Source of the DNA: an uncultured Treponema sp.
GTDB lineage: Bacteria > Spirochaetota > Spirochaetia > Treponematales > Treponemataceae
Assembly: GCA_934718065.1 (NCBI GenBank)
Contig: CAKUZR010000008.1
Coordinates: forward strand, 34,655 to 98,654
DNA length: 64,000 nt
Direction of reading: 5' to 3'
The position numbers and the translations under genes are program-made. A model generated the notes under the pieces. The model was not told where the DNA came from, made no database searches, and saw only the letters and a program-made list of their open reading frames with translations. This document shows, in pieces, positions 3,321 to 60,499 of this stretch; within the stretch, counting starts at the first letter, position 1; each line of letters begins with the position of its first letter.

Positions 3321-5114
3321 TTACTCATCGTCATACTGAAGAGCGGCATAGCCTTCTTCTCCAGTTCTGATTTTTACAACTGTGTCCACAGGGTAAACGA
3401 AGATTTTTCCATCTCCAATGTGTCCTGTGTAAAGCGCTTTCTTCGCAGCATCAATTACAGTTCTGACCGGAACTTTTGAAACTACAATTTCAACCTTGAT
3501 TTTTGGAAGAAGTGTCATTTCAACTGGCGCGCCGCGGTAGAATTCACTTGCGCCTTTCTGCATTCCGCAGCCCATTACATTAACAACAGTCATTCCTGTT
3601 ACGCCAATTGAATTCATCGCCGCCTTAAGCGTATCGAACTTTGTCTGACGGGTAACAATTACAACCTTGCTGAACTTTGCATCCGCCGGAGCAACATTCT
3701 GAACCGGAACAGCCTTTTCAACTGGAACAGGCGAGCCGCCAGGAATTGTAACGCCGGCTTCTTTCGCTTCCTCATACTCTTCATCAGTGTAAGTAAGAGC
3801 AAATCCAGCAAAACTTGAATCCAAACCGTGCTCAAACTTGTCAAGACCAACAATTTCTTCCTCCGGACTAACTCGCAGGCCGATTGTCTTTTTCAAAATC
3901 AGGAAAGAAATTGTGATTGTAACAACTGTCCACGCAATTGTAATTCCCATACCGCCAAACTGTTTTCCAAGCTGAGCAAATCCGCCGCCGTAGAACAAAC
4001 CTTCCTTGATTCCAGCAAGCGCAAATCCAGGAGCAGCGTCTGTTGCGAACAAACCAACAGCAATTGTTCCCCAGATACCGTTCATCATATGAACCGCAAC
4101 CGCACCAACCGGGTCATCAACGTGAAGCTTGTTGTCAAGGAACCAAACACCGAAACATACAAGCAGACCGGCAACAACACCAATAACAGCCGCACCAGCG
4201 CAGTCTGTAACATCACAAGGGGCCGTGATTGCAACCAGACCAGCCAGAGAAGCGTTCAAACACATTGAAACATCAGGTTTTCCGTACTTAATCCAAGTGA
4301 AAAGCATCGCAGTTACAGTAGCAACCGCCGGAGCAACTGTTGTTGTAAGAAGAACAGAAGCCAAAGTTGGAATATCAGTAGCGGCAGCACCGTTGAATCC
4401 GTACCATCCAAACCAAAGAATAAAACAACCAAGCGCGCCGTTCGCAATGTTTGAGCCAGGGAAACCATGAACTTTTGTTACCTTGCCGTTCGCATCGCGG
4501 TCAAATTTTCCGATTCGGGCACCAAGCATAGCCGCGCCAATCAAAGCGCAAATTCCGCCAACCATATGAATACAGTTTGAACCCGCATAATCGTGGAATC
4601 CCCACTGAGCAAGGAATCCGCCGCCCCAAGTCCAGTGCGCTTCAATCGGATAAATAATTCCAGAAATAATCGCCGAATACAAACAATATGTAGAAAACTT
4701 AGTTCTTTCAGCCATCGCACCAGAAACAATTGTCGCAGTTGTAGCGCAGAACATAAGGTTGAACACAAAACCAGAAAAATCAAAGCTGGCATAGCTGCTG
4801 AACACGCTGAAACCAGGTTTTCCAATAACCGACCAAATTCCCTTGCTTACTTCGCCAGTAACCGGATCAGTATAAGAAAGCATCAACGAAGAACCAATCA
4901 AAAACCACATCAGTGTACCAATACAGAAATCCATAAGGTTTTTCATGATGATGTTGCCAGTATTCTTCGCGCGGGTAAAACCAGCCTCAACCATCGCAAA
5001 TCCGGCCTGCATCCAGAATACTAACGCGGCGCCAATAAGAAACCAGACACTAAAAGTTGTGCCGTTCACTTCTGCAATCGCACTCGCAATCGCCTGAGAA
5101 ATTTCCTGAGTCAT
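3321..5114 (-). CDS. amt: Ammonium transporter with fused C-terminal PII (GlnK-type) domain
   Basis: Starting at the ATG at 5114 (GGAGGT just upstream) the protein has 597 residues. An open frame continues further upstream, but that part is repeat-like and lacks a ribosome binding site. Residues about 15-440 are an Amt/MEP transporter with its hydrophobic helices (for example the SVWFLIGAALVFWMQAGFAM helix and HMVGGICALIGA). After a short linker, residues about 478-597 are a complete PII protein: the T-loop reads GASEFYRGAPVEM with Tyr526 at the uridylylation position, and HIGDGKIFVYPVDTVV matches the B-loop/nucleotide-binding segment. PII proteins normally plug Amt as separate trimers; here the sensor is covalently attached. 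The gene lies downstream of type III glutamine synthetase but has its own promoter and leader attenuator. Confidence 0.93.
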   Translation of the reverse strand: MTQEISQAIASAIAEVNGTTFSVWFLIGAALVFWMQAGFAMVEAGFTRAKNTGNIIMKNLMDFCIGTLMWFLIGSSLMLSYTDPVTGEVSKGIWSVIGKPGFSVFSSYASFDFSGFVFNLMFCATTATIVSGAMAERTKFSTYCLYSAIISGIIYPIEAHWTWGGGFLAQWGFHDYAGSNCIHMVGGICALIGAAMLGARIGKFDRDANGKVTKVHGFPGSNIANGALGCFILWFGWYGFNGAAATDIPTLASVLLTTTVAPAVATVTAMLFTWIKYGKPDVSMCLNASLAGLVAITAPCDVTDCAGAAVIGVVAGLLVCFGVWFLDNKLHVDDPVGAVAVHMMNGIWGTIAVGLFATDAAPGFALAGIKEGLFYGGGFAQLGKQFGGMGITIAWTVVTITISFLILKKTIGLRVSPEEEIVGLDKFEHGLDSSFAGFALTYTDEEYEEAKEAGVTIPGGSPVPVEKAVPVQNVAPADAKFSKVVIVTRQTKFDTLKAAMNSIGVTGMTVVNVMGCGMQKGASEFYRGAPVEMTLLPKIKVEIVVSKVPVRTVIDAAKKALYTGHIGDGKIFVYPVDTVVKIRTGEEGYAALQYDDE

Positions 5115-5240: not shown

Positions 5241-5361
5241 TGTTTCTCTCCGAAAAAAAAGGCGCGCCGGCTGCAAAACACAGAAAATTCAACTCTTCTG
5301 TCTTTTACAACAAGCACGCCCTTGTGCACGTCATATTTTTAATCTTAAGCAAGTTAAAAAC

Positions 5362-5409
5362 AAAAAGGCGGCAAGAATTTGCATTCACAAAATCTTGTCG
5401 CCATTGACA
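5362..5409 (-). ncRNA. amt leader attenuator: AAUGGC hexaloop hairpin overlapping a terminator (putative ANTAR target)
   Basis: On the minus strand TGTC-AATGGC-GACA (5396-5409) forms a 4 bp stem with a hexaloop having A at position 1 and G at position 4. Its 3' arm overlaps a mutually exclusive terminator, GGCGACAAGATTT pairing with AAATTCTTGCCGCC (5367-5402), followed by TTTTTG and more T. It starts about 8 nt after the -10 box. The same loop in the same position precedes glnN. ANTAR proteins are known to stabilise such hexaloop hairpins and so prevent termination. Effector and function here are inferred. Confidence 0.7.
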
Positions 5410-5415
5410 TTTATA

Positions 5416-5444
5416 GTTATATAAAATTTCAAAAAAATATGCAA
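5416..5444 (-). promoter_or_regulatory. Promoter of the amt-PII gene
   Basis: On the minus strand TTGCAT (5439-5444), a 17 bp spacer and TATAAC (5416-5421). The layout matches the glnN promoter at 7985-8013. Confidence 0.65.
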
Positions 5445-5714: not shown

Positions 5715-7802
5715 TTAAACTCTGTAAAGCAAATCTTCGTAGCTAGGGAACGGCTTGTAGTTTTCGCCAAGCAGAGGCTCAATTTCATCAGCCACTGCGC
5801 GGGCTTCAGCCATTGCAGGAATAACTTTGTCCGCATAAGCTTTTGCAACAGCCATAACATCGCCGCTGGCTTTTGCCGCAAGATGAATTTTCGCAAGCGA
5901 CTCAGTTTTTTCAGCCAAATCGCCGGTCAAAGCATCCAGTTTTGAAAGCAGCGCGCTTTCAGCAGAAGCCTTCGCAGTCGGAACTACCGCCTTAAGATTT
6001 ACAACAGTTCTTGAAACATCCGCAATGTATTTGTATGCAGCCGGAAGAATGTCCTTGTTTATCATTTCAAGCATTGTTTCAACTTCAATATTTAAAAGCT
6101 GAGCATATTTTTCAAGCTTGATTTCATAGTGGCTTTCCATTTCTTCCTTTGTGTAAACGCCGGCATCCGTGTAAAGCTTAACATTCTTTTCATCAAGATA
6201 ATGCGCAACTGCATCCGGAGTTGTTCTGAGCTCAAGAAGTCCGCGCTTTGCAGCTTCTTTCTTCCAAGACTCATCGTATCCGTTTCCGTTGAATACAATT
6301 CTCCAGTGAGCTTTTACTTCTCTTTCAATAAGAGTGTTCAAAGCCTTTTCAAAATCTTTTGCGCCTTCAAGCTCGTCTGCAAAAACCTTCAGAGTTTCCG
6401 CAACAATCGCGTTCAATGTTGTGTTCGGTCCAGCCAAAGAAACATTTGAGCCGGCAGAACGGAACTCGAACTTGTTTCCAGTGAATGCGAACGGAGAAGT
6501 TCTGTTTCGGTCTGTAGAATCTTTTGGAATCGGCGGAAGAACATCAACACCGATTGTCATCTTTGATTTTTTGTCGGCAGAATATGGTTTTCCTTCAACA
6601 ATAGATTCAAGAACACGGTGAAGCTCATCGCCAAGATATACTGAAATAATTGCCGGAGGCGCTTCGTTCGCTCCAAGACGGTGGTCGTTTCCAGCTGAAG
6701 CCACAGAAATTCTGAGCAAATCCTGGTTTTCGTCAACAGACTTCAAAATCGCTGTAAGGAAAAGAAGGAACTGTGCATTTGACTCCGGAGTTTTTCCCGG
6801 TTCAAGAAGGTTTTCGCCTTCATTTGTAGACATTGACCAGTTGTTGTGCTTTCCAGAGCCGTTGAGTCCAGCGAACGGTTTTTCATGAAGAAGACATTCC
6901 AAACCATGACGCTTAGCAACTTTTTTCATAACTTCCATTGTAAGCTGGTTCTGGTCAACAGCAATATTTGTTGTGCTGAAAATCGGAGCCATTTCGTGCT
7001 GCGCTGGAGCAACTTCGTTATGTTCTGTCTTTGAAAGAATTCCGTACTTCCACAAAGTTTCGTTCAAATCTTCCATATATTTTACAATGCGCGGATTCAA
7101 CGCTGCAAAATACTGGTCGTCCATTTCCTGGCCTTTTGAAGGTTTTGCGCCGAACAAAGTGCGTCCTGTCATGCGCAAATCTTTTCGCTTTGACCACAAA
7201 TCATGGTCAACAATGAAATATTCCTGCTCCGCGCCTACAGTTGTTGCAACGTGGCTTACAGTTTTTCCAAAAAGCTTAAGAATTCGTTTTGCCTGCTTGT
7301 CCAATGCTTCCATAGAACGAAGCAAAGGCGTTTTCTTGTCAAGCGCTTCGCCTGTATAAGAACAGAACGCTGTTGGAATACAGAGTGTATGCTCCTTGAT
7401 AAAAGGATATGAAGTCGGATCCCATACAGTGTAGCCGCGAGCCTCGAAAGTTGCGCGGTGGCCTCCAGAAGGGAAAGAAGATGCATCAGGCTCGCCTTTT
7501 ACAAGCTCTTTTCCGCTGAAAGACATAATTACTGTGCCGTCATCCTGCGGATTGATAAAAGAATCGTGCTTTTCCGCTGTAATTCCAGTCAAAGGCTGGA
7601 ACCAGTGAGCAAAGTGCGTAGCTCCTTTTTCAATCGCCCAGTCTTTCATTGCGTGGGCAACAACGTTAGCTACATCCAGCTCAAGCGGCGCCCCGGAATC
7701 AAGAGTTTTCTTGAGCGCTTTAAAAGTTTCCTTAGGAAGACGATCTTTCATCACTTTCTGATTGAAAACCATGCTTCCAAATAATTCAGGTACGTTTGTC
7801 AT
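5715..7802 (-). CDS. glnN: Type III glutamine synthetase (GlnN family)
   Basis: A 695-residue enzyme making glutamine from glutamate, ammonia and ATP. Length and sequence fit GSIII rather than the 440-470 residue GSI. N-terminal family landmarks are [15 protein letters not shown] and [17 protein letters not shown]; the catalytic core includes [41 protein letters not shown] and the [17 protein letters not shown] segment with the substrate Arg. The start has AGGAG with suitable spacing. A leader of about 170 nt carries a terminator/hexaloop element and two further hairpins (around 7895-7912 and 7855-7894). With the amt-PII fusion next to it, this is an ammonium uptake and assimilation locus. 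Confidence 0.95.
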
Positions 7803-7914: not shown

Positions 7915-7977
7915 AAAAAAAAAGCGATGTGAATTTCAACTAAAAAACTTAGAAAAAATTCACATCGCCATTGATGT
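7915..7977 (-). ncRNA. glnN leader attenuator: AAUGGC hexaloop hairpin overlapping a terminator (putative ANTAR target)
   Basis: On the minus strand ACATC-AATGGC-GATGT (7962-7977) forms a 5 bp stem with hexaloop A1/G4. Its 3' arm is part of a perfect 13 bp terminator stem, GCGATGTGAATTT (7956-7968) with AAATTCACATCGC (7924-7936), followed by nine T. Compared with the amt leader, the loop is identical and the stem is different but still pairs. The terminator might instead end the upstream FemAB-like gene, but a promoter lies between them. Confidence 0.75.
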
Positions 7978-7984
7978 TGATATT

Positions 7985-8013
7985 TTTATATAACTTTACA
8001 AAAAAAAGTGCAA
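7985..8013 (-). promoter_or_regulatory. Promoter of glnN
   Basis: On the minus strand TTGCAC (8008-8013), a 17 bp spacer and TATAAA (7985-7990), ending 10 nt before the conserved TCAATGGCGA. Confidence 0.7.
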
Positions 8014-8063: not shown

Positions 8064-9254
8064 TCATTTCATCTGAAGTGTTTCTGAAATTCTGCATCTG
8101 CTGTATTCATTCTGCTTGTAAGGAAAATCCCATGTGCCGCCAAAACACGCTTTTCTTCCGCCAAATCCAGTTTTAAAAATGTAAAGCCCCGCCATAAAAT
8201 TCGCGCCGTCGCTGTTCGGCGGAATTCCCATCAAATCATACTGCGTGCAGCCAAGGCTTCTTGCAAAACGAATAACTTCCCACTGCAATCCATAATTCGG
8301 CATACATTCGCGGCCTTCCAGCGAGCTTGCGGCATACATATAATATGCAGTTTTTCCGCATACCGCCAGAATCAAACCGCTTAAAAGACATTCATTTTTG
8401 TGCGCTGTAAAAAGATAGAATTTCGGAGGCGGAACTTGCGCGTCCATCGGCACAAGCGAATTTGCAGAATCTTTTCCCCGGAAAGACGCCCCGTCTCCAG
8501 CCGATTTTTTTCTATTTTTGCGGCAAATTTCCAGCCAGTTTCTGGCAATTTTAAAAATCGTCCTGAAATACTCAATTTCTTCGTAAAAAAAGTTTTTTCT
8601 TTTTGCTGTTGAAACATAAATTTCATGCCAACGCTGAAGTTTTTCCTCCAAATCCGGACTGGCCGCATCAAAAATTGAAAATTCAACTTCCTCGCGGTAA
8701 GCGCGCCGAACAGAATTTCTTGTCTGCTGCCGCATTGAGCCAAGCAGTTTTTCAGGCGGAAAATGCAAATCAATAATAATCGTGTTCGGACACAAATAAT
8801 TTGAAGGCGCTTTTCTAAGATTATGCGTCCGCGTTCCAAAATTCATTGAAAGCTCCAGAAGTTCGGTTCGCAACCCCTGAGTTTTCCTTGAATAGCTCGG
8901 CCACGGCAAGTCAAACCGGATAAAAGCTGTTTCTGGCGGCAAAAATTCAGTCAGATTTTCAGCAATATCCTCCAGGAGAAGCCCTCGGAATTCTTCACTT
9001 ATATTAACCGCCGGAGCACGCTGAGCGTAAGCATACACCGTTCCGCCTTTTGTTCGCCGAAGAATTACAAGCAAAGGAAAATTATACTGGCTTGCAAAAT
9101 TTTCCGCCTCATCAGACTGAAACTGCGCCGTAACCCAAAAATAATACGGAACTTGCCCGCTGCATTCCTCTTTAACTTTTCCCCAGAATGAAGTTTGAAA
9201 CAAAACATCTGTGCAAGGAAAATCCACAGAATCCACTTGAATGATTTTTACCAT
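8064..9254 (-). CDS. FemAB/FemX-like aminoacyl transferase (GNAT fold)
   Basis: A 396-residue protein resembling the peptidoglycan-bridge (FemABX) transferases, which add amino acids from aminoacyl-tRNA to lipid II peptides. Family-like parts are the opening SFWGKVKEECSGQVPYYFWV, the MRQQTRNSVRRA segment and the C-terminal YMYAASSLEGRECMPNYGLQ ... DLMGIPPN stretch, where FemAB proteins have their acyl-transfer core. A low-complexity basic stretch around residues 245-275 (CRKNRKKSAGDGASF) looks like an insertion between the two lobes. The ATG lacks a clear ribosome binding site. It is 56 bp behind nnr. The substrate cannot be assigned. Confidence 0.75.
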   Translation of the reverse strand: MVKIIQVDSVDFPCTDVLFQTSFWGKVKEECSGQVPYYFWVTAQFQSDEAENFASQYNFPLLVILRRTKGGTVYAYAQRAPAVNISEEFRGLLLEDIAENLTEFLPPETAFIRFDLPWPSYSRKTQGLRTELLELSMNFGTRTHNLRKAPSNYLCPNTIIIDLHFPPEKLLGSMRQQTRNSVRRAYREEVEFSIFDAASPDLEEKLQRWHEIYVSTAKRKNFFYEEIEYFRTIFKIARNWLEICRKNRKKSAGDGASFRGKDSANSLVPMDAQVPPPKFYLFTAHKNECLLSGLILAVCGKTAYYMYAASSLEGRECMPNYGLQWEVIRFARSLGCTQYDLMGIPPNSDGANFMAGLYIFKTGFGGRKACFGGTWDFPYKQNEYSRCRISETLQMK

Positions 9255-11149: not shown

Positions 11150-11455
11150 ATGTTCGACAAAGTCATTCCAGTTTTTGAAATGAAAAATAAACTCTCATAT
11201 TTTCTGCGAAAGGCAAAAGAAGAAGGTCCAGTTTTTATCAGCAACCGCGGAAAACCCGAATTTGTGCTGCAAACAATAGAAGAATATGAAAATTCAAGGC
11301 GGAAAGAAAAATCGCTGGTTGAACGCATTCAGGAATCGCGCAAAAATTTCGGCATGGAAAATGACGATTTTGATTTTTCCGCATACTATGAAAAAATCAG
11401 GGAAGAAATTCCAATGAACCGCGCCCCGGAAGAACATCTTTTCGACGAGGCGTAG
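11150..11455 (+). CDS. Type II antitoxin, Phd/YefM-like (VapB)
   Basis: A 101-residue protein beginning MFDKVIPVFEMKNKLSYFLR, matching the N-terminal DNA-binding fold of Phd/YefM antitoxins (strand, then helix, then strand with VFISNRGKPEFVLQTIEEYE). The acidic C-terminus (NAPEEHLFDEA-like end) would wrap the toxin. A longer frame begins at 10979, but GGAGG lies just before this ATG and the upstream translation is repeat-derived. It is followed three bases later by a PIN toxin. The complex normally represses its own promoter. Confidence 0.85.
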   Translation: MFDKVIPVFEMKNKLSYFLRKAKEEGPVFISNRGKPEFVLQTIEEYENSRRKEKSLVERIQESRKNFGMENDDFDFSAYYEKIREEIPMNRAPEEHLFDEA

Positions 11456-11458
11456 CCG

Positions 11459-11890
11459 ATGAAACCGATTTATCTTTTAGACACAAACGCCGTTTCTGAA
11501 CTTCTAAAAATTGCGCCGAACTCCAGTTTCCTGCAGCACTTCACTAGATACGAAAAACGCTGCGCAATCGCCTCAACAACATGGAATGAGCTTTTATTCG
11601 GCGTGAATATTATGGAATCCGGAAAAAGGCGGGATTTTCTGTTTTCCAAAATAATTGACGATATTCAGGAAGCATTTCCGGTAATTCAGCTTGACAATCA
11701 CGCGGCATGGATTCAGGCGGATTTACGCGCGCGCCTAAAAGAATCCGGAAAAACCGTTGATTACCCGGACACAGAAATCGCGGCCATTGCAATCGCAAAC
11801 CAGATGATTCTTGTAACCAGAAACACAAAACATTTCGAGCCAATCACCGAAATAAATTCCGTCTTCCATTGCGAAAACTGGTTCAACTAG
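11459..11890 (+). CDS. vapC: PIN-domain ribonuclease toxin (VapC-like)
   Basis: A 143-residue PIN protein. The acidic active-site residues are in place: Asp in YLLDTNAVSE, Glu in TTWNELLFG, and Asp in VDYPDTEIAAIAIA, with the late VTRNTKHFEPI segment typical of VapC. VapC toxins cleave tRNA or rRNA when not held by their antitoxin. The gene is translationally coupled to the antitoxin (3 bp gap), and both genes look intact. Confidence 0.9.
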   Translation: MKPIYLLDTNAVSELLKIAPNSSFLQHFTRYEKRCAIASTTWNELLFGVNIMESGKRRDFLFSKIIDDIQEAFPVIQLDNHAAWIQADLRARLKESGKTVDYPDTEIAAIAIANQMILVTRNTKHFEPITEINSVFHCENWFN

Positions 11891-27280: not shown

Positions 27281-27328
27281 CGTCCTCAGGATTGAACAAC
27301 TTTGCACATTCAGATAACATATATTCAA

Positions 27329-27465
27329 CTTCAGGGCGAGGTGAAATTCCTCACCGGCTGTGTGCATTTTACGCAAGTCAGCGAGCAGATGCGAAAGCAA
27401 TATTTTTCGTCTGCAAGATACGGTGTGATTCCGTAACCGACAGTAAAGTCTGGATGAAAGAAGTA
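27329..27465 (+). ncRNA. FMN riboswitch (RFN element)
   Basis: The conserved RFN blocks occur in order: AGGGCGAGGTGAAATTCCTC, ACCGGC, GTCAGCGAGC, GGTGTGATTCCGTAACCGAC, and AGTAAAGTCTGGATGAAAGA. It lies upstream of the riboflavin genes and should lower their expression when FMN is abundant. Confidence 0.97.
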
Positions 27466-27506
27466 AATTGAATGCAATTGTTTTTTTTGCAGAATTTATT
27501 CTTATT

Positions 27507-32684: not shown

Positions 32685-32759
32685 ATATATTTATTTTAGT
32701 CGATAGTGTTTTTTTTTTAAAGATAAAGTATAATTTTATCACCTTTTGGAGGTTTTTTA

Positions 32760-34001
32760 ATGGAATACACAGAAAAAGAAGTTCTAACCTACATTGCTGA
32801 AAATGATGTGAAATTCATCAAGCTATTTTTTACAGACATTTTTGGAACGATAAAAAGCATTTCAATTCAGCCGAGCGAGCTTGAACGTGCTTTTAAAACT
32901 GGAATTTCTTTTGATGCAAGCGCAGTGAAAGGTTTTTTGGGCGTTGACAAAAGCGATTTGTATCTTGTGCCGGACGCTTCCACTCTTTCAGTTTTGCCAT
33001 GGCGGCCTCAGCATGGAAGAGTTGTTCGTTTTTACTGCAATATTAAATATCCAGATGGAACTCCGTTTGAAGGCGATATACGAAATATCCTTGAGGAAGT
33101 TGTTGAAAAAGCTGAAAAGAAAGGCTACAAAATAAATGTTGGAACTGAATGTGAATTTTATCTTTTCCAGCTGGATGAAAAAGGAAATGTAACAAATATT
33201 CCGCACGACAACGCCGGCTACTGCGATCTTGCGCCGTTCGACAAAGGCGAAAATATCCGCCGCGACATTTGTCTTACGCTGGAGCAAATGGGAATCAAGC
33301 CGGAAGTAAGCCACCACGAAACCGGGCCAGGCCAGCACGAAGTTGATTTTGTTTACGCTTCGCCGCTGAAAGCCGCCGACAATCTTTCGACTTTTAAAAC
33401 TGTTGTGCGCACGGTTGCCGCAAGAAACGGACTTGACGCGAATTTTTCCGGAAAACCGATTTCTGGAAAACCAGGAAACGGACTTCACATAAATATTTCA
33501 ATTGAAAAAGAACGAAAAAATCTGTTCGCTGATTTTGAAGATGAAGCGCAGTATTTCATTGCAGGAATTCTTGACAAAATCCGGGAAATAACCGCATTTC
33601 TGAACCCTGACGAAAATTCGTACAAAAGATTCGGGCATTTTGAGGCGCCGCTTTATATTGGTTGGAGCCGCGCGAACCGAAGCCAGCTGATTAGAATTCC
33701 AGCAGCCTCGGACAAAAGCCGCAGCCGAATGGAAATCCGTTCCCCGGATCCAAGCTGCAACCAGTACGCCGCGCTTGCCCTTTTGCTTGCCGCAGGATTT
33801 GAAGGAATCGAAAAGAAACTTCCTCTTCCGCCGGAGCTGGATTTGAACATTTTCAAAGCTTCCCCGGATGATTTGAAAAATTTGAAGACGTTGCCGCAGT
33901 CGCTTTCAGAGGCAGTTCAACTGGCTTTTCAAAGTGAATTTGTAAAAAATATTTTGCCGGAAGTTACGCTGAACGCATTTGTTGATGCTGAAAAAGAGTA
34001 A
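32760..34001 (+). CDS. glnA: Type I-like glutamine synthetase
   Basis: 413 residues, about 30 shorter than common GSI-alpha enzymes. The beta-grasp N-terminus (VKFIKLFFTDIFGTIKSISI) and catalytic motifs are present: ECEFYLFQ, ETGPGQHEVDF, SGKPGNGLHIN, the NSYKRFGHFEAPLYIGWSRA block (with one residue fewer than the usual LVPGYEAP) and EIRSPDPSCNQY. A second, unrelated glutamine synthetase (type III) lies at 5715-7802. The gene has GGAGG and a TATAAT box at 32729-32734, and is followed 30 bp later by the ANTAR regulator. It might instead be a GS-like ligase for another amine. Confidence 0.88.
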   Translation: MEYTEKEVLTYIAENDVKFIKLFFTDIFGTIKSISIQPSELERAFKTGISFDASAVKGFLGVDKSDLYLVPDASTLSVLPWRPQHGRVVRFYCNIKYPDGTPFEGDIRNILEEVVEKAEKKGYKINVGTECEFYLFQLDEKGNVTNIPHDNAGYCDLAPFDKGENIRRDICLTLEQMGIKPEVSHHETGPGQHEVDFVYASPLKAADNLSTFKTVVRTVAARNGLDANFSGKPISGKPGNGLHINISIEKERKNLFADFEDEAQYFIAGILDKIREITAFLNPDENSYKRFGHFEAPLYIGWSRANRSQLIRIPAASDKSRSRMEIRSPDPSCNQYAALALLLAAGFEGIEKKLPLPPELDLNIFKASPDDLKNLKTLPQSLSEAVQLAFQSEFVKNILPEVTLNAFVDAEKE

Positions 34002-34031: not shown

Positions 34032-34601
34032 ATGGATTCTGTTTTAATTGTTTCTAACACAAACACAACCCTTGGAATTATTTCCGACTTGCTGAATTCG
34101 CAGCCGTTCAGCCGGATTGTTACGGCTCAAAACTGCGCTGAAGCCCGGCGGGATTTAATCACTGACGAATTTGACTTGATAATCGTGGATTCGCCGCTTC
34201 CAGATGAATTCGGGGATGATTTTTCATTGTATGCCGCGGAACAAACGGATGCCGGAATAATTCTGATTGTTGACAACGACAAAGTTTACGACACAAGCCC
34301 GGATATTGAGGACGCTGGTGTTTTTGTGCTTCCAAAGCCTGTCAGCCCGGAATTTTTCTACCAGGCTGTAAAACTTCTGATTGCAAGCCGAAAACGCGTT
34401 CAAGTCCTTGAAAACGAAAACGTCAAGCTTCAGAAAAAAATTGATGAAATCCGCCTGATTGACCGCGCAAAATGCATCTTGATTCAATATTTGCAAATGA
34501 CCGAGCCGCAAGCCCACAAATACATTGAAAAACAAGCCATGAACCTGCGCCAAAGCCGCCTTCAGACCGCCGAATCAATCTTGAAAACCTACGAAAGATA
34601 A
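34032..34601 (+). CDS. ANTAR-domain RNA-binding antiterminator with pseudo-receiver
   Basis: 189 residues in three parts. Residues 1-118 are a receiver-like domain that keeps the phospho-acceptor position (IIVDSPLP) and the Lys of FVLPKPVS, but has SNTN where receivers have an acidic pair, so phosphorylation is doubtful. A helical linker follows (RVQVLENENVKLQKKI). Residues 137-187 are an ANTAR domain: IDRAKCILIQYLQMTEPQAH, then YIEKQAMNLRQSRLQTAESI. ANTAR domains bind paired hexaloop RNA hairpins and prevent transcription termination (NasR, AmiR, EutV). Coupling to a glutamine synthetase gene suggests nitrogen control. The leaders at 5362 and 7915 are candidate targets. Confidence 0.93.
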   Translation: MDSVLIVSNTNTTLGIISDLLNSQPFSRIVTAQNCAEARRDLITDEFDLIIVDSPLPDEFGDDFSLYAAEQTDAGIILIVDNDKVYDTSPDIEDAGVFVLPKPVSPEFFYQAVKLLIASRKRVQVLENENVKLQKKIDEIRLIDRAKCILIQYLQMTEPQAHKYIEKQAMNLRQSRLQTAESILKTYER

Positions 34602-58311: not shown

Positions 58312-59121
58312 CTATTCCTTTAGGCTGTTCACTTCTTCCAAAGAAAGTCCTGTGCATTTTATAATTAAATCCATAGGGATTTTATTTTCTATCATCTTTC
58401 TGGCGGTTTCAATGGTCTTGTTCTTGGCGCCTTCTGCAAGTCCTTCTTCCCGTGCCTCGTCTTTCCATTCGCGGATCTGGTCTTTCCAAAGCATATATTC
58501 TGCCCTCCATTTCTGGTGATTCTTGCATGAGTCTACGGCAGACTGAATCTCCTTTGTCAGCGGGTCGGTCGCAGTGCGGCTCCTTAGGAATTCAAGGAAC
58601 GCCCGGACATCCGGATTTTCAGCCTTCTCAAAGCTGCTTGCATTATAGATTACTTTGTGGATTCTGTCATTCAGAATCCGTCCGCCGCTGACTTCTTTTG
58701 TCGCAAAGTTGTAGACCGGCTTTTCATCCCCGAACGGGTCATCAAGGCAGATGAACACGACATAGGACTCCTTGAGTTCCTTGAAACTTTCGCCGCGGTT
58801 CAGGTGGTCAATGTCCATCATGCTCTGGTAATAGCGCATACGAAGGCCTTCATCTTTCTTTATGACGGTCTGCATTTCTATGTCGATGATTTTATCTTCA
58901 TCCTCAAGATATGCGTCCAGGCGGATGCCCTTGCCGTTGTAAAGCTCGTCGATTGAATATTGAGATGTAACAAACTCAATCTTTCTGACCTTGATTCCTA
59001 AAAGGTTCTGAACGACGCCCTTTGCGATTTCAGGATTTCTCATAATCTTGGAAAAAAGGAAGTCGTCCGTGAAAAACAGGTCGTCGTAGGATTTCATAGT
59101 GTATTTAGATTCTTTCTGCAT
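58312..59121 (-). CDS. Rpn-family PD-(D/E)XK nuclease / transposase-like protein, copy 1
   Basis: 269 residues from the ATG at 59121, which has AGGAG six bases upstream; an ATG five codons earlier lacks spacing. FTDDFLFSKIMRNPEIAKGV opens the domain. The active-site pattern Asp ... Glu-x-Gln appears in GIRLDAYLEDEDKIIDIEMQ. Later segments are YYQSMMDIDHL, VVFICLDDPFG and a C-terminal charged helical tail (WKDQIREWKDEAREEGLAEG) ending in a CTGLSLEEV motif. Members promote RecA-independent recombination in E. coli. A close paralogue is at 59708. Confidence 0.9.
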   Translation of the reverse strand: MQKESKYTMKSYDDLFFTDDFLFSKIMRNPEIAKGVVQNLLGIKVRKIEFVTSQYSIDELYNGKGIRLDAYLEDEDKIIDIEMQTVIKKDEGLRMRYYQSMMDIDHLNRGESFKELKESYVVFICLDDPFGDEKPVYNFATKEVSGGRILNDRIHKVIYNASSFEKAENPDVRAFLEFLRSRTATDPLTKEIQSAVDSCKNHQKWRAEYMLWKDQIREWKDEAREEGLAEGAKNKTIETARKMIENKIPMDLIIKCTGLSLEEVNSLKE

Positions 59122-59426
59122 TTTTTGCTCCTGCATAGTTAACGCAAAAAAAATTGCATAAACGGAAATGTTTTACAAAGAATTTTGTAAGTTTTTTGAA
59201 AAAAAACTTTCTAGCAGGTTGTAAGGACTTGTTTGTAAAGAAATTACAGCCTGCGCAAATTACAGATAAAACCTATGTTTTTTTCAATATTCTGTTGATT
59301 CAGGTTTTGTATCCAGATTTGCATTGCAAGACAGGTCTTTGGGATTTAGAAAAAATAGCTGGAGATTTCTTTTTCCGTTCTTTGACAATTGGTTTTTCTG
59401 CAAGTTTTTACCATTGGAGGTCTTGT

Positions 59427-59707: not shown

Positions 59708-60499
59708 TTACAGCGACTTTATCTGCTCCGGTGAAAGACCGGTGCATTCGGCGATTATTTTTTCAGGGATGTTGTTTTTCAGGAGTTTTTTAGCGGTCTC
59801 AACCGCCTTGTTCATCGCGCCCTGAGCGATTCCTTCTTTCCTGCCTTCGTGCTTCCACTCCTCTATCTGGTCTTCCCACAGCATATAGTCAGTCCTCCAT
59901 CTTTCAGCCTTCTTGTTGAGAGCAACTTCGGCCTGGATTCTTTGCGTCAGCGGGTCGGAGGCGGCGCGCATGTTCAGGAACTTAAGGAACGCGCGGACTT
60001 TGGGGTCGCCGGCCTTCTCGAACGCACTTGCATTATAAAATATCTTGTGGGTTCTGTCATTCAGAATGTGGTTGTCCTCCAGGTCTTTTGTGACGAAGTG
60101 GTAGACGGCCTTTCCGCGGCCAAGCGGGTCGCTCAGGCAGATGAACATGATGAAGGTTTCCTTGAGCGTGCTGTACATCCTTCCGCGCGGCGTTTTTTCG
60201 GTGTCGATTATCCCCTGGTAGTAGCGCATGCGCAGCCCCTCGTCCGCCTTAAGCACGGTCTGAATCTCAATGTCGAAAATCCGGTTTTCATCCTCCAGGT
60301 AGGCGTCAAGGCGGACTCCTTTTCCGGTGTAGGCGGCATCGATTGTGTGCTGGGACGTGAGAAACTCAATCCTGCTGATTTTTACGCCGAGCAGGTTTTC
60401 AACGACGCCCCGGGCGATTTCCGGGTCGCGCATAATCTTGCTGAACATGAAGTCGTCGCTGAAGGTGAGCTCCTCGTATGGTTTGAATCTGTGTTCCAT
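59708..60499 (-). CDS. Rpn-family PD-(D/E)XK nuclease / transposase-like protein, copy 2
   Basis: 263 residues. It aligns along its length with copy 1: FSDDFMFSKIMRDPEIARGV, VRLDAYLEDENRIFDIEIQ (Asp ... Glu-x-Gln active site), MRYYQGIIDTEKTPRG, MFICLSDPLGRGKAVYHFVT, and the same C-terminal tail (EWKHEGRKEGIAQGAMNKAV). GC content is higher than in copy 1. Catalytic residues are kept. Confidence 0.9.
   Translation of the reverse strand: MEHRFKPYEELTFSDDFMFSKIMRDPEIARGVVENLLGVKISRIEFLTSQHTIDAAYTGKGVRLDAYLEDENRIFDIEIQTVLKADEGLRMRYYQGIIDTEKTPRGRMYSTLKETFIMFICLSDPLGRGKAVYHFVTKDLEDNHILNDRTHKIFYNASAFEKAGDPKVRAFLKFLNMRAASDPLTQRIQAEVALNKKAERWRTDYMLWEDQIEEWKHEGRKEGIAQGAMNKAVETAKKLLKNNIPEKIIAECTGLSPEQIKSL

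Follow-up and report, generated by a model that had tools for sequence, protein, structure and literature searches.

The leader of glnN in 64,000 nucleotides of DNA from an uncultured Treponema (the whole stretch analysed, hereafter the window) is very probably an ANTAR-controlled attenuator of a single-hexaloop kind. Judged from its sequence and those of its relatives, the probability that an ANTAR protein opens it through one hexaloop hairpin is about 0.8. Since the described RNA family has two hairpins and the leader only one, it is best called a variant working like that family. The evidence comes from the anatomy of the leader and its conservation, its co-occurrence with an ANTAR gene, the lack of the first hairpin (P1), the target genes of relatives and a conserved glutamine synthetase-ANTAR pair (Table 1). 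In the proposed mechanism, RNA polymerase would start at the hairpin or a few nucleotides upstream. If no active ANTAR protein is present, the hairpin would give up its 3' arm to the terminator, and transcription would stop after about 60 nt. Active ANTAR protein would instead bind the AATGGC loop as it emerges and keep the hairpin closed, and the closed hairpin would withhold the 5' arm of the terminator so that glnN is transcribed. The tandem pair of units ahead of amt-PII would work likewise. Binding, antitermination and nitrogen shortage as the inducer are presumed in this scheme.

Table 1. Features of the glnN and amt-PII leaders and of the glutamine synthetase-ANTAR locus in the window
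Feature	Position	Strand	Remarks
glnN -35 box TTGCAC	8008..8013	-	coordinates by script
glnN -10 box TATAAA	7985..7990	-	17-nt spacer to -35
Hexaloop hairpin ACATC-AATGGC-GATGT, candidate antiterminator, P2-like	7962..7977	-	-3.4 kcal/mol
glnN intrinsic terminator hairpin, perfect 13-bp stem	7924..7968	-	arms 7968-7956 and 7936-7924, -21.2 kcal/mol
T tract (nine T) of glnN terminator	7915..7923	-	
glnN, type III glutamine synthetase, 695 aa, putative regulated gene	5715..7802	-	PF12437, PF18318, PF00120
amt promoter TTGCAT-17-TATAAC	5416..5444	-	
First amt hexaloop hairpin TGTC-AATGGC-GACA	5396..5409	-	R1 23.3 bits; R1 trained on this hairpin
First amt terminator, T5	5362..5402	-	arms 5402-5393 and 5376-5367
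Second amt hexaloop hairpin GCAC-AAGGGC-GTGC	5314..5327	-	
Second amt terminator, T8	5253..5320	-	arms 5320-5314 and 5267-5261
amt-PII fusion (ammonium transporter and P-II domain)	3321..5114	-	PF00909, PF00543
Short glutamine synthetase of type I (413 aa), encoded ahead of ANTAR gene	32760..34001	+	
Response-regulator-like ANTAR protein, 189 aa, degenerate receiver, candidate antiterminator	34032..34601	+	

At the level of anatomy, scripted coordinates bear out most of what an earlier note on this DNA had described, namely the hexaloop hairpin (7977-7962) and the perfect 13-bp terminator with its nine T. The small hairpin and the terminator both need the seven bases 7968-7962 and are thus mutually exclusive, as the note had held. 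It had also placed the promoter TTGCAC-N17-TATAAA correctly, but this promoter is not near consensus, as was claimed, because its -35 box matches TTGACA at only three of six positions; relatives carry TTGACA-17-TATAAT at this site. The distance from the -10 box to the hairpin, given as ten nucleotides, is in fact 7. Transcription usually starts about 7 nt behind the -10 box, and from this spacing the glnN start is expected near 7978-7977. GlnN of the window shares 78% identity (best segment) with that of Treponema sp. Tb.RUG.193, which fits a Treponema-like spirochaete. A covariance model of promoter and hairpin built on 39 sequences (R1) gives the window glnN hairpin 39.6 bits, the hairpin being one of its training members. 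With Rfam 15 at gathering scores, neither the glnN nor the amt leader matched a family, the only match in the window being an FMN riboswitch elsewhere; over 11 relative loci the same search returned two tRNAs and left the leaders unmatched. A generic promoter and terminator scan of the window listed neither the glnN promoter nor its terminator, which is uninformative because the promoter fails the 9-of-12 rule of that scan and the terminator loop lies outside its 3-8 nt rule.

The next gene after glnN on the minus strand is amt-PII, whose start was taken by eye as the ATG of MTQEIS (the listed open reading frame begins at 5276). A scan of both window strands for hexaloops coupled to terminators gave seven hits, three of which are the glnN and amt leader units; the other four (46425 +, 62837 -, 18736 -, 16864 -) are taken for chance.

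The conservation of the unit was followed in the best 80 of at least 591 loci from a glnN protein scan, seven of them from treponemes or other spirochaetes and the rest mostly bearing the names of clostridia. Locus L027 was excluded from every ANTAR count, leaving 79 relatives (66 with and 13 without an ANTAR gene). A fixed criterion required an ANNGNN loop, a C-G closing pair, a stem of at least 4 bp and a terminator that overlaps the hairpin and ends in a T-run, all no farther than 300 nt from glnN. It picked out 42/66 loci from genomes with an ANTAR gene against 1/13 from genomes without (Fisher p = 2.1e-4), and 63 of 5757 equal-length segments elsewhere in the same loci, both strands counted. 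When a promoter replaced the terminator and the reach was extended to 1.6 kb upstream, the counts were 45/66 and 1/13 (p = 6.4e-5); both p-values are too small, because related genomes were treated as independent. In 24 of the 66 ANTAR-bearing loci no unit was found by the 300-nt criterion, and the promoter-coupled scan found 45 further hexaloops at other places in the loci, including one in the ANTAR-less L048. Assembly gaps may explain the two ANTAR-less loci with a unit, L060 and L048: the glutamine synthetase gene usually found ahead of the ANTAR gene is incomplete in both genomes (G060 and G049), a contig edge cutting the copy in G049 and one of two fragments in G060. Among the seven spirochaete genomes, the two that lack an ANTAR gene (L003, L004) have no hexaloop at glnN and all five that carry one have it, the hexaloop of L001 failing the fixed criterion through a T-A closing pair and two G-T pairs. 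Tandem arrangements also recur in leaders of relatives, under the fixed criterion in L011, L019, L032, L037 and L056 and by eye in L042, L044, L050 and L053. Repeated twice before amt and present in these 42 ANTAR-bearing loci, the layout of the glnN leader is more than chance. In L028, 54 nt upstream of glnN, the terminator loop on a 20-bp stem is itself an A1/G4 hexaloop (AACGGA), either by chance or as a second site.

Conservation of the hexaloop in related glnN leaders had been named beforehand by the earlier note as a test that could refute its proposal, and the hexaloop is conserved. The glnN hairpins of relatives include CATC-AATGGC-GATG, CGAC-AAAGAG-GTCG, ACAGC-AAAGGC-GCTGT, AAGGC-AATGGC-GTCTT and GCAAC-AAAGGC-GTTGC. 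Their stems vary in sequence while retaining pairing in an alignment of two window units with 37 of 45 hand-picked ones, a set selected for pairing because eight units (L017, L021, L039, L043, L046, L047, L060, L075) were omitted from it. Among the 45 first units are L009, L034, L074 and L077, none of which passes the terminator part of the fixed criterion; L022, L080 and two loci with a hairpin but no terminator found (L005, L008) are not included. Over 48 loops (three from the window, 45 hand-picked) the second position is A in 47, the fifth G in 42 and the sixth C in 39; A1 and G4 were fixed by the search itself. The conservation of A2 points to recognition of the loop, since in the three window units this base lies outside the terminator arm. 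The tracking of the ANTAR gene by the unit, together with stems that vary and still pair in the selected set, supports the note's proposal that the leader could be an ANTAR attenuator, possibly one with a single hairpin.

The main alternative is that the leader is a canonical dual-hexaloop attenuator whose transcript starts farther upstream and whose P1 was overlooked, a reading that we consider improbable. In Enterococcus faecalis, deletion of P1 abolished induction of eutP (PMC3369931) and a lengthened linker abolished antitermination (PMC8934654), so that one hexaloop need not suffice, and the promoters on which the position of the start depends are predictions only. However, in 43 of 45 hand-picked units only 6-21 nt (10 being the commonest distance) lie between the stem and the end of a promoter scoring at least 8/12. 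If transcription is assumed to start about 7 nt behind the -10 box, no more than 7 nt would separate start and stem in 39 of the 43, and a P1 requires at least 12 nt plus a linker; promoters that end so close to the hairpin leave it little room. P1-like hairpins within 40 nt upstream were found in 2 of 47 leaders, against 3.1 in shuffled sequences, and none of the 47 has a C-G closed one in that interval. One of the two matches is the window glnN leader itself, which lends the alternative some weight, but this weak match, TGTAAAGTTATA, has only 3 bp and a T-A closing pair; placed 11 nt ahead of the stem, it overlaps the -10 box and so precedes the predicted transcription start. Between the window glnN promoter and the hairpin no second (P1) hexaloop was found. 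As a control, the same scan over 12 eutA loci of Clostridia recovered three leader elements, of which L229 and L233 show the classic dual hexaloop, P1 lying 4 and 3 nt ahead of P2, respectively, and L238 is a single hexaloop. The absence of P1, which the earlier note had remarked at glnN, is thus general across the leader set rather than local. Single-hexaloop units with a nearby promoter were also seen in genome G246, namely L238, near eut genes and 677 nt upstream of the eutA match, and L263, which precedes what resembles by eye an amt gene.

Two further explanations retain the terminator but dispense with the ANTAR protein. It is unlikely that the leader is a real attenuator in which another protein, a metabolite or co-transcriptional folding alone decides: competition between a hairpin and a terminator is a common design and ANTAR binding is here a prediction, but the unit tracks the ANTAR gene, the loop retains A1, A2 and G4 (A2 in 47/48) and no Rfam family matches. 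Less likely still is an ordinary terminator, for example that of the FemAB-like gene which ends upstream at 8064 on the same strand, next to a hexaloop arisen by chance. Although 4-bp ANNGNN hairpins do occur by chance, the promoter sits between the FemAB-like gene and the terminator, and the layout repeats before amt and in relatives and follows the presence of the ANTAR gene. Moreover, the ANTAR-less L003 keeps GCGATGT and a terminator-like stem but lacks the 5' arm of the hairpin, and with it the competing structure, as judged by eye. A single hexaloop opened by an ANTAR protein stays the preferred reading.

The R1 model revealed the genes that such units precede in relatives, among them glnA-ANTAR, gltB, amt, asnA, asnB, pyrG, purF and nadE. 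The training set of R1 included glnN leaders from several of the genomes later searched with it, and whole-genome counts are lower bounds because 150 first-look candidates were scored per genome. In treponeme contigs, chosen for R1 hits or ANTAR genes, 12 of 19 scripted candidates lie directly before nitrogen-related genes: gltB, glnA-ANTAR and glnN in G001; asnB, glnN (two units), amt and gltB in G002; glnN and pyrG in G006; amt in G005; and glnN in G007. Among the remaining candidates, one is at a contig edge, one sits probably inside the amt terminator and five are without a good promoter or such a gene. For six clostridial genomes, flanking DNA was examined for 30 of 43 R1 hits. A recognisable hexaloop is present in 16 of them, preceding asnA (2), glnN (3), pyrG (2), amt (2), glnA (2), nadE, purF, a GATase gene, a circularly permuted ATP-grasp gene and an unidentified frame (L166); for one hexaloop, L169, the script found no terminator. 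The other 14 have no hexaloop and are probably background. Target names were verified by Pfam or NCBIfam for 14 proteins and given by eye for the others.

This search also bears on the ANTAR-bearing loci without a unit at glnN. Of the 24 such loci, 13 entered the comparison, and R1 reached at least 34 bits in 11 of these 13 genomes and, among 13 ANTAR-less genomes, in G060 only, the 34-bit line having been chosen after the data were seen. In some of these ANTAR-bearing genomes the element precedes asnA, itself located before glnN. Base composition was considered as a cause of R1 hits and set aside; the ANTAR-less G040 reaches 33.1 bits. In eight loci (L007, L012, L013, L022, L025, L045, L053, L080) the divergent gene upstream of glnN has its own unit on the minus strand, 270-1385 nt upstream of glnN, the gene encoding a GATase in the sole case checked (L165). 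The stems there are of the type (T/A)GA(A/G)C-loop-GTTCA, unlike those of glnN, and unit stems may be gene-specific. The window's own glnA-ANTAR leader, 32690-32760 (+), shows no hexaloop unit by eye or in the scan; the pair has one in G001, and glnA in two clostridial genomes.

The ANTAR protein of the window scores 56.2 bits with PF03861 (gathering cut-off 27.3), and the short glutamine synthetase encoded ahead of it 393 bits against a GlnA cut-off of 429. This pair is conserved: a glutamine synthetase gene lies within 1.5 kb of the ANTAR gene in 29 of 34 loci with DNA, one of the other five being at a contig edge. A long match to the window enzyme (42-60% identity) occurs in all 13 ANTAR-bearing genomes tested; among the ANTAR-less genomes, 10 of 13 match only more distant glutamine synthetases and G049, G058 and G060 hold partial copies. 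The window receiver retains the Asp and the Lys and lacks the acidic pair and the Thr/Ser site. In an alignment of 35 ANTAR proteins that includes the one from the window, 20 have Asn and 7 Asp at the phospho-Asp site, and 25 have Lys or Arg at the Thr/Ser site. With such degenerate sites, ANTAR activity is probably controlled by a partner protein and not by a kinase, and the adjoining glutamine synthetase is the obvious candidate, for which Bacillus TnrA, held by glutamine synthetase, offers a precedent in kind (PMC6316151). Of the residues by which EutV contacts RNA, Met172 is retained in 35/35, a basic residue stands at K143 in 32 and at K147 in 32, the Y164 site is His in 34/35 and the R142 site Ile in 23/35; at R142, K143, K147, Y164 and M172 the window protein has I, R, R, H and M, so that M172 is kept and K143 and K147 are changed conservatively. 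The His at Y164 was tried as a mark of the class and rejected, since other glutamine synthetase-linked ANTAR proteins have Phe (L259) or Tyr (L261), and L104 has Phe too. G246 combines the linked L259 with a single-hexaloop unit (38.7 bits). The dual-hexaloop eut genome G304 encodes an EutV-like ANTAR protein (L262) besides the linked L261 and, despite the latter, gave no R1 match at E <= 0.01, and G267, with an EutV-like protein only (L260), has no R1 match either. Together, these genomes indicate that neither His nor glutamine synthetase linkage alone predicts the single-hexaloop class.

In relation to known systems, Ramesh 2012 defined ANTAR targets as two hexaloop hairpins and located such dual elements before nitrogen genes in many bacteria (PMC3369931); the terms Treponema, spirochaete and glutamine synthetase are absent from the main text of that paper. 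Of the features it describes, the window has an A1/G4 hexaloop overlapping an intrinsic terminator and an encoded ANTAR gene. Walshe 2022 observed that the EutV dimer contacts one hexaloop at a time and redefined the minimal motif as a single hexaloop, with P1 retained as a recruitment hairpin and single sites expected where polymerase timing is irrelevant (PMC8934654). Dual-stem models were used by Mehta et al. (PMC8164766). The window leader, one hexaloop hairpin with A1 and G4, agrees with this minimal site. It resembles the eut attenuators of EutV/EutW in that the 3' side of an A1/G4 hexaloop overlaps a terminator, a receiver-ANTAR protein is at hand and the genes are nitrogen-related (PMC3369931, PMC8934654), but a single hexaloop where the transcript begins replaces P1 and P2, and its ANTAR protein differs from EutV in the degenerate receiver, the His at Y164, the Ile at R142 and the lack of any adjoining kinase seen. 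AmiR-AmiC offers a likeness in its receiver without the usual phosphorylation residues (PMC8934654), and both it and the partner-controlled NasT-NasS have a conserved neighbour as possible sensor; unlike in these systems, the window neighbour is a glutamine synthetase and a candidate partner only. The dual hexaloops before nitrogen genes, for example in Desulfotomaculum, likewise serve glutamate, glutamine and ammonium genes with several elements per genome; they were found by models demanding two hairpins (PMC3369931). Finally, NitR, an ANTAR protein from a different organism, Clostridium saccharobutylicum, reportedly uses antitermination to induce GS/GOGAT genes under nitrogen limitation (PMC6316151, PMC4676874), and the window system may be of the NitR kind.

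That ANTAR proteins control nitrogen genes is already known. A literature search, with most subscription papers and supplementary tables outside its scope, met single-hexaloop attenuators only in the remark of PMC8934654, and what seems new is a large class in which a lone hexaloop sits where the transcript starts. The accepted model calls for two hexaloops in antitermination, yet in the EutV structure a dimer holds one. The authors of that structure asked what single-hexaloop sites do (PMC8934654), and dozens of natural one-hexaloop leaders, all in an attenuation setting, make the question directly testable by assays that already exist. If the reading is true, searches for two hairpins missed part of the ANTAR regulons in gut clostridia and spirochaetes, and for nitrogen control there a regulator, a sensor and a set of targets can be proposed. 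More tentatively, and with the odds somewhat against it in this full form, there might be a whole class of ANTAR attenuators without recruitment hairpin, in which a lone hexaloop built from the 5' end of the transcript is enough. Pseudo-receiver ANTAR proteins would run it with the adjoining short glutamine synthetase as sensor, and this enzyme would thereby control termination at genes that assimilate ammonium or use glutamine (glnN, amt, gltB, asnA, asnB, pyrG, purF and nadE).

Elsewhere in the window, the FMN riboswitch (107 bits) occupies 27323-27469 (+), ahead of a frame that by eye is riboflavin synthase-like. Also by eye, two adjoining frames at 11300-11890 (+) resemble an antitoxin-toxin pair of PhD/VapC type, and two similar tandem frames at 58312-59136 and 59708-60499 (-) are like PD-(D/E)XK nuclease-family transposases.
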